A stretch of DNA of 62,006 nt from an uncultured bacterium (GTDB taxonomy: Bacteria > Vulcanimicrobiota > CADAWZ01): contig CADASF010000037.1 in NCBI GenBank assembly GCA_902790465.1, positions 1-62,006 on the forward strand. Direction: 5' to 3'. The position numbers and the translations under genes are program-made. Below, piece after piece: positions 189-62,006 of this stretch; position 1 is the first letter of the stretch, and each line of letters opens with the position of its first letter. The notes beneath the pieces were generated by a model that saw nothing but the letters and a program-made list of their open reading frames with translations, did not search any database and was not told the origin of the DNA.

Positions 189-325
189 ATCGACTCAATT
201 TTTAAGTAAATAATAATTAACAGGCTTAGATTGCCACGGTCGCATAGCTCCCTCGCAATGACAAAGTGGCAGTAAACAGGCATATATTGGATAGTTTATA
301 GCAACTTTTTATTTAATTATTTTTT
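189..325 (+). repeat. Dispersed composite palindromic repeat, copy 1
   Basis: The segment runs from ATCGACTCAATTTTTAAG through a central imperfect palindrome (GATTGCCACGG...CCTCGCAATGAC) to an AGTTTATAGCAACTTTTTA end. The same layout recurs at 42285-42407 (inverted), 55873-56155 and 60692-60930. The rest of bases 1-333 holds no gene that I can support, only another CTCC/GGAG hairpin near 105-160. Short GTCATTGCGAGG...GGCAATC palindromes are common in bacterial genomes and are probably non-autonomous mobile repeats. Confidence 0.8.
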
Positions 326-3811: not shown

Positions 3812-4431
3812 TTCATGCCTTCCAAAACTTTAGAAATAGCTTCATTCAATTCGAGGTCTTTATATTCTTCAAATTTTTGTTTTGCTATTTCTTTTGCTTC
3901 TTTTGGGCTACAGCCAAACTCTTGTAAAACAAGTTCTATGTCTTTTATTTTTTCGTCGAAAGATAAATTTTTGACAGGTTTTTCTTCTTCATCAGATTCT
4001 GATTTGTAATGCAATTTTACAAATTTATTGAACTTATCTTTTTGTTTAAGTTCAATTAACATTCTCTCAATTTTCTTTTCTCCCATACCTGGAATTTTTT
4101 TGAGAGTTTTTTTATCCTCATTTAAAATTGCTTTTATAAAATCTTCAATCTTTGTAAAAGAAATTAAAGTCAAAGCCAATTTAGGACCAAAAGAGCTTAT
4201 GCTTCTTATTATTGTAAAAAGTTCTTTTTCTTCTTTTGACAAAAATCCATAAATATCAGCAGCATTTTCAGATATCTGCAAAATTGTATGTAATTTTATT
4301 TCTGAGTTTGGCTTTATTTCAAGATAATTGTCAGAAGTTGGAGTATTTACAAAATACCCAAGACCTCCTGTCTCAACAACAATAAATCCATTTCCTATTT
4401 CTTCTGCTTTTCCCTTAATAAAATCGATCAT
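3808..4431 (-). CDS. ruvA: Holliday junction DNA-binding subunit RuvA
   Basis: This protein of about 207 residues begins MIDFIKGKAEEI and has the OB-fold domain, two helix-hairpin-helix motifs (the second is KKIPGMGEKKIERMLIELK) and a C-terminal three-helix domain that contacts RuvB. I chose the ATG at 4431 because AAAGG, formed by the last codons of ruvC, sits seven bases upstream. A start five codons earlier would overlap ruvC and lacks that site. RuvA tetramers hold the Holliday junction for RuvB and RuvC. Confidence 0.94.
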   Translation of the reverse strand: MIDFIKGKAEEIGNGFIVVETGGLGYFVNTPTSDNYLEIKPNSEIKLHTILQISENAADIYGFLSKEEKELFTIIRSISSFGPKLALTLISFTKIEDFIKAILNEDKKTLKKIPGMGEKKIERMLIELKQKDKFNKFVKLHYKSESDEEEKPVKNLSFDEKIKDIELVLQEFGCSPKEAKEIAKQKFEEYKDLELNEAISKVLEGMK

Positions 4432-4435
4432 TGTT

Positions 4436-4918
4436 TTACCTTTCAAATTCTACAGCAAAAGCATGACATAGAGCTATCGCAAGAGCATCAGCAACATCAT
4501 CTGGTCCTTTTATTTTTTCAACCCCAAGATGTAATTTTACAGTTTCCTTAACTTCACTTTTAGAAGCTCTTCCATACCCAGAAAGAGTTTCTTTTACCTG
4601 AAGAGGTGTATATTCAAAGACTGGAATGGAATTCAAAGCAGAAGCGAGAAGAATCACTCCTCTTGCCTCTCCAACACTCATGGCTGTTGTCACATTTCTG
4701 TTGAAGAACAACTTTTCCATTGCCAATTCGTCTGGTTTTATTTCTTTTATTTTAGATGTTATATCTTCAAAAAGAATTTTTAGCCTTTCCGCTCCAGTCT
4801 TTTCTTTCGGTGTTGTAATACAACCACAGGAAATTAAAGTTGGTTTTTGCCCTTTTTCTATATTTATATATCCAAATCCAGTTCTTCCTGTTCCTGGATC
4901 AATTCCCAATATAACCAA
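4436..4918 (-). CDS. ruvC: Crossover junction endodeoxyribonuclease RuvC
   Basis: This 160-residue resolvase has the RNase H-fold start VILGIDPGTGRTGFGYI (catalytic Asp7), the Glu in MEKLFFNRN, and the C-terminal KGPDDVADALAIALCH with catalytic acids. It cuts Holliday junctions symmetrically. The start is TTG, six bases after the yebC stop, with AAGGA in the yebC tail as ribosome-binding site. Its length is typical. Confidence 0.95.
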   Translation of the reverse strand: MVILGIDPGTGRTGFGYINIEKGQKPTLISCGCITTPKEKTGAERLKILFEDITSKIKEIKPDELAMEKLFFNRNVTTAMSVGEARGVILLASALNSIPVFEYTPLQVKETLSGYGRASKSEVKETVKLHLGVEKIKGPDDVADALAIALCHAFAVEFER

Positions 4919-4924
4919 CTCAAA

Positions 4925-5647
4925 TTATTCCTTCATATCATAATTTGTATATACATTCTGAACATCATCTATTGAATCAAGTGCATCGATCAATTTTGTT
5001 ACCTTTGCACCGACTTCTTCACTTGCTTCTATATAATTTTCTGGAATCCAAGTTACTTCTGCAGATTCACACTCAATTTTTGCATCATCAAGAGCATTTT
5101 TTACTGCTGCAAAATCTGAAGGAGCACATGTTATTTCAAATCCATCTTCTGATGACTCTATATTTTCACAACCTGCATCGAGGAGAAGTTCCATAAGTGA
5201 ATCTTCTGTATTTCCTTCTGCTGGAACAAAAATAACACCTTTCTTCTGGAACATATATGAAACACAGCCATTTTCACCGAGTGATCCGCCATGTTTTGTC
5301 AAAGTGCTTCTAACAGCTGCAGCACTTCTATTTCTATTATCAGTTGCTATTTCAATCATAATAGCAACACCAGATGGACCATATCCCTCATACATCAACT
5401 GTTCATAATCAGCTGCACCTGCTCCACTTGCTTTTTCAATAGTTCTTTTTATGTTATCGGCAGGCATATTTACTTCTTTTGCTTTTTGGATAGCAACTTT
5501 TAGTCTGAAGTTTGTATCTGGATTACCGCCACCTTCTTTTACTGCCATGTGAATTTCTTTTGAAACTCTTGTAAAAACCTGACCTCTTGCACTATCTGTT
5601 TTAGATTTTTTCTCTTTGATATTATGCCATTTTGAATGTCCTGACAT
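4925..5647 (-). CDS. yebC: YebC/PmpR family protein (TACO1-like)
   Basis: This 240-residue protein opens MSGHSKWHNIKEKKSKTD and contains IKRTIEKASGAG and YEGYGPSGVAIMIE, all hallmarks of YebC. The family was described as transcriptional regulators; later work ties members to translation through difficult (for example proline-rich) stretches. It starts the yebC-ruvCAB operon behind an AAGGAGG site. A small CCGAAA/TTTCGG hairpin lies in its leader. Confidence 0.94.
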   Translation of the reverse strand: MSGHSKWHNIKEKKSKTDSARGQVFTRVSKEIHMAVKEGGGNPDTNFRLKVAIQKAKEVNMPADNIKRTIEKASGAGAADYEQLMYEGYGPSGVAIMIEIATDNRNRSAAAVRSTLTKHGGSLGENGCVSYMFQKKGVIFVPAEGNTEDSLMELLLDAGCENIESSEDGFEITCAPSDFAAVKNALDDAKIECESAEVTWIPENYIEASEEVGAKVTKLIDALDSIDDVQNVYTNYDMKE

Positions 5648-5744
5648 ATAGGCCTCCTTAAATTAACCCGAAAAATTTCGGATATAAAATATTGTATCTT
5701 AAATTTGCTTTTTATTTTTCTTATTCCTTTTTTAGATTTAATAA

Positions 5745-42284: not shown

Positions 42285-42407
42285 TTAAAAGTTGCTATAA
42301 ACTATCTAATATATGCCTGTACACTGCCACTTTGTCATTGCGAGGGAGCTGTGCGACCGTGGCAATCTAAGCCTGTAAATTATTATTTACTTAAAAATTG
42401 AGTCGAG
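42285..42407 (-). repeat. Dispersed composite palindromic repeat, copy 2
   Basis: Inverted relative to the others: AAAGTTGCTATAAACTATC, then TGTCATTGCGAGGGAGC, the arm ACCGTGGCAATCTAAGCC, and the end AAAAATTGAGTCGA. Confidence 0.85.
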
Positions 42408-55872: not shown

Positions 55873-56155
55873 TGTCATTGCGAGGGAGCTCCACAAATAG
55901 TTAAAAACTCTTTAGAGTTTTTAAAAAATTACCCTCACAAGGAGGGAGCGACCGTGGCAATCTCAAAGGCTTAATTTAAATTTAGTAATTTATTTAGTAG
56001 ATCAAGAATCTCATTCTACGACATAAGTGATCGACTTCATTTTTAAGTAAATAATAATTTACAGGCTTAGATTGCCACGGCTACGCCTCGCAATGACAAA
56101 GTGGTAGTGTACAGGAATATATTGGATAGTTTATAGTAACTTTTTATTTACTTAT
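55873..56155 (+). repeat. Dispersed composite palindromic repeat, copy 3
   Basis: Two palindromic units in series: GTCATTGCGAGGGAGC...GCGACCGTGGCAATC at 55873-55962, then the core ATCGACTTCATTTTTAAG...GATTGCCACGG...CCTCGCAATGAC...GGATAGTTTATAG. The whole of 55812-56232 is otherwise empty of genes. Confidence 0.85.
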
Positions 56156-60691: not shown

Positions 60692-60930
60692 GTCATTGCG
60701 AGGCGTAGCCGTGGCAATCTCAAAGGCTTAATTTAAATTTAGTAATTTATTAAGCAGACCACGCATCTCATTCTAAATACCGCCGATCGACTCAATTTTT
60801 AAGTAAATAATAATTTACAGGCTTAGATTGCCACGGTCGCTTCCCCCTTGTGTTCGCTCCCTCGCAATGACAAAGTGGTAGTATACAGGCATATATTGGA
60901 TAGTTTATAGCAACTTTTTATTTATTTAAT
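60692..60930 (+). repeat. Dispersed composite palindromic repeat, copy 4
   Basis: GTCATTGCGAGGCGTAGCCG, the arm GTGGCAATCTCAAAGGC, then the ATCGACTCAATTTTTAAG...GCAATGAC...GTTTATAGCAACTTTTTA core. It shares the TTAATTTAAATTTAGTAATT linker with copy 3. The rest of 60638-61108 is empty. Confidence 0.85.
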
Positions 60931-61108
60931 TTTCTACAAAATCGACTCGGCAAAAGCCGAGAAAAAAAATAATAGTTAAATATAATCTCTTTTTAATCAC
61001 TAACTAAAGCACATTATTTTACACAAAATTATAATAATCAAAGATTATCGCCCAAAGCATTTTTTTTCTCCTTAATTTCTTAAAAATTAAGGAGCTTGAT
61101 TTAAAAGA

Positions 61109-62006
61109 TTAAAGATTGATCCATAAAGCGAGCCGCACAACACCGTTACTATCGCAAACATAGCTGTAATCGATACCACCACCATAAGAAACATTATAGA
61201 CAAAATTGTACATAGGAGAACGAAGCCACCAACTACTATAACCATTATCATTATATACATCAGCTCCATTTTTCACAGCATATTCAGTAGCTCTACATCT
61301 TCTCTCATCTTTATTAGAAAAATATTTTTCTGCCTCTTCTTTACTCAACAAAAACACATTATCACTTGTACCCACATCTGAAAGATTAGAAAGATTTATA
61401 GATTTCTTTTCCTGATCTGTAAATGCCTGATTATAAAAATCACCATTCAACCACTTGCGAATTTCACTATTTGACCAAACATTTGAACTACTATCAAAAC
61501 GCTTTGCATCAAGACCATAACGAGAAATAACAAGAATTTTGTTATTTGCTTTTGACAATACCTGCCATTCTATGGACTGTTTTTGACCACTTGAAGTTTG
61601 AGGATAACTACCAAATTTTATATAATCGCCAACATTTGTATTTGTAAATGGATTTGAATTTACTGAATTTTGTTTTTTTGATTGATTATTATAACTTTTT
61701 GAAACTTCTGATAAAGAATCAGATTTCAAATCTAAATTTTCCTGTTCAACATTAAGATTGATCCACAAAGCCGACCGCACGAGAGTATCAGCATGGCTAA
61801 CAACATCGTAGCAGCTGAAATCACCAGCACGACGGACACGAAAGACACCATTACTAAAATCAGGATCAGGAGAACGAAGCCACCAACAACAAGCATTATC
61901 ACTATCTACCCAAGCACCATTTTTTACAGCATAATCAGTGGCTTTACACATTCTCAAATCATTATTAGCAAAATATTTTTTTGCCTCTTCTCTACTAAGC
62001 AAAAAT
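61109..62006 (-). CDS. Protein with two DUF6273-like domains (5' end outside window)
   Basis: At least 298 codons; the frame stays open off the window edge (FLLSREEAKKYF). Two copies of a DUF6273-like domain end at ALWINL (codons about 85 and 297); between them lies VGDYIKFGSYPQTSSGQ and RKWLNGDFYNQAF, the start of domain 2. Each domain has LLSKEEAEKYFSN, WWLRSP and ALWINL. Such proteins are often surface-exposed. The stretches from WWLRSP to ALWINL differ strongly between domains and look hypervariable (see findings). Confidence 0.8.
   Translation of the reverse strand, partial: FLLSREEAKKYFANNDLRMCKATDYAVKNGAWVDSDNACCWWLRSPDPDFSNGVFRVRRAGDFSCYDVVSHADTLVRSALWINLNVEQENLDLKSDSLSEVSKSYNNQSKKQNSVNSNPFTNTNVGDYIKFGSYPQTSSGQKQSIEWQVLSKANNKILVISRYGLDAKRFDSSSNVWSNSEIRKWLNGDFYNQAFTDQEKKSINLSNLSDVGTSDNVFLLSKEEAEKYFSNKDERRCRATEYAVKNGADVYNDNGYSSWWLRSPMYNFVYNVSYGGGIDYSYVCDSNGVVRLALWINL
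61112..61231 (-). other. Candidate variable region 2 (C-terminal domain)
   Basis: From the TGGTGG codons to the last codon before the stop. After ATG (Met) in WWLRSPM, 24 consecutive codons end in C or T, then GTGCGG, CTC, GCT and TTATGGATCAATCTT. Elsewhere this genome prefers A-ending codons. Confidence 0.6.
61754..61885 (-). other. Candidate variable region 1 (N-terminal domain)
   Basis: After TGGTGG, 33 consecutive codons end in C or T, followed by GTGCGGTCGGCTTTGTGG and ATCAATCTT. Residues include Arg, Cys, His and Phe at places where domain 2 has Tyr, Gly, Asn and Ser. Confidence 0.6.

Follow-up and report, generated by a model that had tools for sequence, protein, structure and literature searches.

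Diversity-generating retroelements (DGRs) that write into DUF6273 domains have been described for phages. The "tentaclins" of the gut phages nd4 and nd12 and the targets of Faecalibacterium prophages carry their variable segment (VR) inside a DUF6273 domain, as was found here, and those phages have a cassette of avd, template repeat (TR) and reverse transcriptase (RT) (PMC10743442, PMC11792537). Targets that lie far from their cassette are likewise known. In Treponema denticola the targets of one template are dispersed and remote, as they are here, and the TvpA family includes leftover targets in strains that have neither RT nor template (PMC4891356). Remote targets were also reported for cyanobacteria (PMC7517822) and for Thiohalocapsa, which has 15 targets and 21 VRs (PMC10907252). 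These resemble the present case in that the VR domains are C-terminal and joined to varied N-terminal modules, and in that the loci are remote or incomplete and some are probably written in trans. The chromosomal DGRs of clostridia (L109-L145), finally, share with the present genome an Avd-like protein (up to 64% identical), the motif WWLRSP...VRPALW and an Asn-rich template directly past avd. The gene order in these Firmicutes relatives is DUF6273 target - avd - TR - RT.

The window, i.e. the whole stretch of DNA that was analysed, is the entire contig C37 of 62,006 bases, and its last 898 bases hold a gene that is open at its 5' end. This target gene (61109..62005, minus strand, 298 codons) is cut by the contig end; of its two DUF6273 domains one is partial and the other complete. 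The initial annotation had called the product DUF6273-like, which is borne out by Pfam (PF19789; E 1.4e-26 over two stretches, 93.8 bits against a curated cut-off of 23.5); the profile match to the complete domain covers residues 154-297 (61115..61546, minus strand). An AlphaFold model of residues 106-298, which spans the second domain, has a pLDDT of 90, and the best and sole strong match of this domain in the PDB was 9qa6, the structure of an IgA peptidase from a bacterium (E 3.7e-7). C-type lectin (CLec) chains scored weakly in the same comparison (E 0.5 or worse), and the CLec fold is therefore taken from the literature, where such likeness has been reported for other DUF6273 domains (PMC10743442).

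Both domains end in the arrangement WWLRSP - variable loop - ALWINL, and both loops consist largely of codons that end in a pyrimidine (NNY). VR1 (61754..61882, minus strand; 43 codons, WLRSP...ALWINL) has an unbroken run of 33 such codons that starts within the WLRSP motif, and VR2 (61112..61228, minus strand; 39 codons) has a run of 24 that starts past the single ATG codon behind WLRSP. These are exactly the lengths that had been given initially. The other long open reading frames of the window (43 of at least 200 amino acids, 15,960 codons in total) reach at most 14 NNY codons in a row, and 47.6% of their codons end in a pyrimidine; from this background the chance of a given run of 33 is about 2e-11. 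The genome had also been said to prefer A-ending codons. Indeed 42% of the codons end in A, but as 40% end in T the preference is only slight.

The G/C-rich ends that had been noted for the two loops (GTGCGG..GGCTTTGTGGATCAATCTT and GTGCGG..CGCTTTATGGATCAATCTT) were found as described. The IMH-like 3' end of VR2 (61112..61138, minus strand) reads GTGCGGCTCGCTTTATGGATCAATCTT, that of VR1 (61754..61780, minus strand) reads GTGCGGTCGGCTTTGTGGATCAATCTT, and the 3' end of the template introduced below reads GTGCGGCTCGCTTTGTATATTAATCTT. The distinction between IMH and IMH* is visible as well: the G/C-rich GTGCGGCTCGCTTT is common to the VRs and the template and is followed by GTATATTAATCTT in the template versus RTGGRTMAATCTT in most VRs of the same class, with the exception of the VR on C5, which has a template-like TATAT past the G/C-rich end. 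An 11-bp hairpin (61068..61094, minus strand) lies 17 nt past the end of VR2. In the BPP-1 DGR a hairpin/cruciform is found downstream of the VR. The hairpin in the window may be a transcription terminator or a DGR target hairpin; hairpins were not enriched downstream of VRs relative to other genes (p 0.14).

The initial annotation predicted that a template and an RT would be found elsewhere in the genome, and for the template this was correct. Searched with the window protein, the own genome yielded 45 DUF6273 matches. The template repeat is located on another contig (C22:20891-21016); it encodes WLRSPNPNNDNNVYNVNNDGNINYNNVNNNNGVVRLALYINL, most of its loop codons being AAT or AAC, and it is not a normal gene. 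An avd-like gene of 129 codons (C22:20470-20859) precedes it by 31 nt. The encoded protein matches bAvd (PF22296) with E 2.6e-8 and 34.7 bits, below the Pfam cut-off of 40, and it is 47-64% identical over its length to Firmicutes proteins that are encoded in RT-bearing cassettes. Upstream of both, at C22:18407-20116, lies a target gene whose product combines LRR_5 repeats with a DUF6273 domain, and which is itself preceded by a tandem pair of genes (L042:3078-4325 and 4389-5693) for two similar proteins that by eye resemble clostripain-family (C11) peptidases. Searches for other templates with the TR peptide, in the own genome (E<=1) and in three relatives (E<=10), returned VR-like matches only, one weak partial match on C35 being left aside.

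The differences between this template and the VRs of its class fall mainly on adenines. In the core, defined as the VR without its last 15 nt, which were set aside as part of the IMH, window VR2 differs from the template at 16 of 33 adenines versus 4 of 69 other bases (p 1.3e-6), which is the pattern of a DGR target that had been proposed from the window alone. The VR of the C22 target gene differs at 17/37 adenines and 1/74 other bases. For the six VRs that were picked as closest to the template (five from the own genome, window VR2 included, and one from the sister species), the core differences amount to 99/206 adenines versus 9/424 other bases (Fisher p = 6e-46), the latter made up of C (3/112), G (3/108) and T (3/204). 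The adenines changed to G in 50 cases, to T in 39 and to C in 10. Four VRs of 39 codons, among them window VR2, align to the template once 9 nt are left out, with the gap placed by hand for register; the full-length, gap-free VRs of C22 and C196 give p-values of 5e-9 and 1e-10 each alone.

VR1 shows this pattern too, with differences from the C22 template at 27/41 adenines and at 12/85 other bases. Like most other VRs it ends in VR(P/S)AL, and these VRs show additional non-adenine differences from that template. Therefore, VR1 and most other VRs were probably written from at least one template version that is absent from the assembly. Within the VRs of 42 codons, which are mostly of this other class, the third base of the codon columns is largely kept and the first two vary (mean entropies of 1.34, 1.22 and 0.69 bits for the three positions).

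We conclude, with a probability of about 0.94, that the variable segments of the window are VRs, and that they are remote targets of a DGR whose scaffold is the DUF6273 fold. By analogy with known DGRs, the template repeat on C22 would be transcribed and then copied by an RT together with Avd, with misreading of adenines. The mutated cDNA would replace the homologous repeat at the end of the target gene, for which the conserved G/C-rich 3' end would serve as anchor, and the AAY codons of the template would become NNY codons in the target. As NNY codons are never stops, such writing cannot create them.

The family of VRs is large. The own genome contains at least 32, of which 23 have at least 20 NNY codons in a row, and the sole other genome of the genus has 13 or 14; the longest NNY runs reach 37 codons. 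The DUF6273 domain is carried by LRR proteins, by proteins with Sel1 repeats, by a lipoprotein-like protein with a Big_2 (Ig-like) domain, and by stand-alone proteins; zinc-ribbon-like N-termini were seen by eye. Some paralogues have an N-terminus that by eye resembles a lipoprotein signal (..ITSACGGG) and others have no visible signal peptide; the display of the protein, as suggested initially, would apply to some paralogues at most. A family member from another genus (G003) has 11 DUF6273 matches (loci L147-L163) in which no long NNY runs were seen by eye, and retroelement writing may therefore be limited to the genus. A short interspersed repeat with core GTCATTGCGAGG is often found near VR genes. 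It occurs six times in the window (251-262, 42334-42345, 55874-55885, 56086-56097, 60692-60703 and 60860-60871) versus 0.04 expected, and is part of larger repeats with hairpins of the type CTCGGC/GCCGAG.

For the second half of the prediction, the RT, the assembly yielded nothing. The RVT_1 profile had no matches in the own genome, and an alignment of 13 cognate Firmicutes RTs (E<=10) had none in the own genome, the genus mate or two family members. In controls the alignment recovered RTs at E<1e-177 in four Firmicutes genomes. As these had contributed to the alignment, they show that the search works and say nothing of how far it reaches; more distant RTs were picked up, at E 5e-24, in another genome from the phylum of the window. 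Among 58 relatives, RVT_1 had no match in the genus or family, a single one in the order and some in other parts of the phylum. Nevertheless, with the assembly estimated to be 97.8% complete, the organism may still have an RT. Hence the initial annotation was right to say that both domains "are, or were" targets: template and adenine bias support it, and the RT has no match in the assembly. The window gene is classed as a DGR-written target, and the genome is not classed as holding a complete DGR, the RT having been looked for and not found.

Directly past the template, where the RT is expected, lies a MITE-like repeat of about 146 bp (L042:8909-9054, on C22) with inverted ends GGGGCTGTGAAAAAA/TTTTTTCACAGCCCC, copies of which, 91-94% identical, also occur in L040, L051, L058 and L059. 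The place of the RT is taken by a gene for an AAA-ATPase_like protein with a PDDEXK_9 domain (L042:9064-10683). Such genes are present in multiple copies (on C84, C102, C49, C29 and others), interspersed with VR genes, and the copy on C22 shares up to 99% identity with one of the genus mate (G001:C158) in genomes that otherwise differ by 5-18%. Searches of IMG/VR for the target domain and for the IMH-like DNA pattern gave no matches, an Avd search of IMG/VR gave relatives of only 29% identity, and phage and plasmid records held distant relatives only, the closest Avd among the phage records being that of nd12 (30% identity). Thus, there is no sign of a mobile element that brings the RT.

Either the system of this genome is a relic or it works in trans, from a cassette that was not assembled; the two are about equally likely. 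That the RT was lost, leaving the VRs as a fixed archive under ordinary mutation, we put at even odds. Template and downstream VR gene would perhaps have recombined at the 3' end of the latter and thereby removed the RT. In line with this, C22 is contiguous from the template to the AAA-ATPase gene with no RT in between, the template is followed by a stop codon and a hairpin resembling those past VR genes, as a crossover would leave, and in locus L113 of the clostridia the RT is directly followed by a second target gene. The RT is, moreover, missing from the searches of the genus mate and both family members, and several VRs are frozen between the two species (C12~C7, C160b~C84 and C160a~C84, own genome and genus mate, respectively). 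In the last pair (L031:11779-11907, L193:223-351) the loops agree over 84 nt and the flanks are nearly identical, but the IMH part differs at several sites in about 24 nt, as if the 3' end alone had been converted. In two other pairs, C196~C49 and C83~C92, the loops differ inside similar flanks, the orthology being tentative because these flanks are short and hold repeats. Two points argue against a relic. Five template-class VRs have few non-adenine changes (0-4 per about 70), so their writing would be recent on the scale of species divergence. In addition, most VRs belong to the other template class, the cassette for which is not in the assembly.

That cassette may be hidden in an assembly gap. 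If a second cassette, with an RT and a VRPAL-type template, were flanked by VR repeats, these would break short-read assemblies, and VR genes do stand at the ends of many contigs, that of the window included. Stretches of 32-37 NNY codons without a break occur in the very class that lacks a template and fit a system that still acts in trans, and trans action between DGR loci has been proposed for Thiohalocapsa (PMC10907252). The estimated completeness speaks against such a gap, as does the failure to find an RT in the genus mate (89% complete), and we give this possibility a slightly less than even chance. In contrast, ordinary positive selection or exchange among gene copies, with the NNY runs as an amino-acid preference, is very improbable despite the large paralogous family that could feed it, considering that the differences from one A-rich copy are restricted to adenines, which in effect refutes it, that third bases are kept where first and second bases vary, that the NNY runs are far above background and that the paralogues lack long shared tracts. 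Indeed, tract sharing between VRs of the genome did not go beyond chance; conversion from VR to VR was rejected as a source of diversity on this ground, and the VRs are therefore independent writings and not copies of each other.

Remote DGR targets written into DUF6273 domains thus remain the preferred reading of the window. Targets in DUF6273 domains, targets remote from their cassette and targets left behind without an RT were all known before; new is the scale, in combination with a cassette that lacks its enzyme. More tentatively, at somewhat less than even odds, we propose that more than 30 retroelement-written DUF6273 loops on many protein frames of one chromosome, with template and avd kept, persist where the RT is truly gone, as a fixed archive that has outlived its maker or one whose rewriting awaits an RT that comes in trans. 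Families of this kind are invisible to DGR surveys that start from the RT or from short contigs, and a large metagenome survey states that its own approach would miss remote targets (PMC8144416). An A-rich orphan template beside avd offers a handle to find them without the RT, and the sister species supplies locus pairs in which frozen and still-rewritten loops can be compared.

The known systems differ from the present one in several respects. In nd4, nd12 and the Faecalibacterium prophages the targets are one or two tail or receptor-binding genes and an RT is present, whereas here a chromosomal family was found, and no RT. The cyanobacterial and Thiohalocapsa systems have RTs and write into CLec domains that belong to conflict or signalling proteins. 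In the clostridial loci the RT is next after the template, at the position that is occupied here by the AAA-ATPase gene. T. denticola has two to seven targets of another fold family, whereas here template and avd are kept. With its at least 32 VRs, the genome exceeds the multi-target genomes with which it was compared, i.e. the 7 targets of T. denticola, the 21 VRs of Thiohalocapsa and the 21 VRs in one open reading frame elsewhere.
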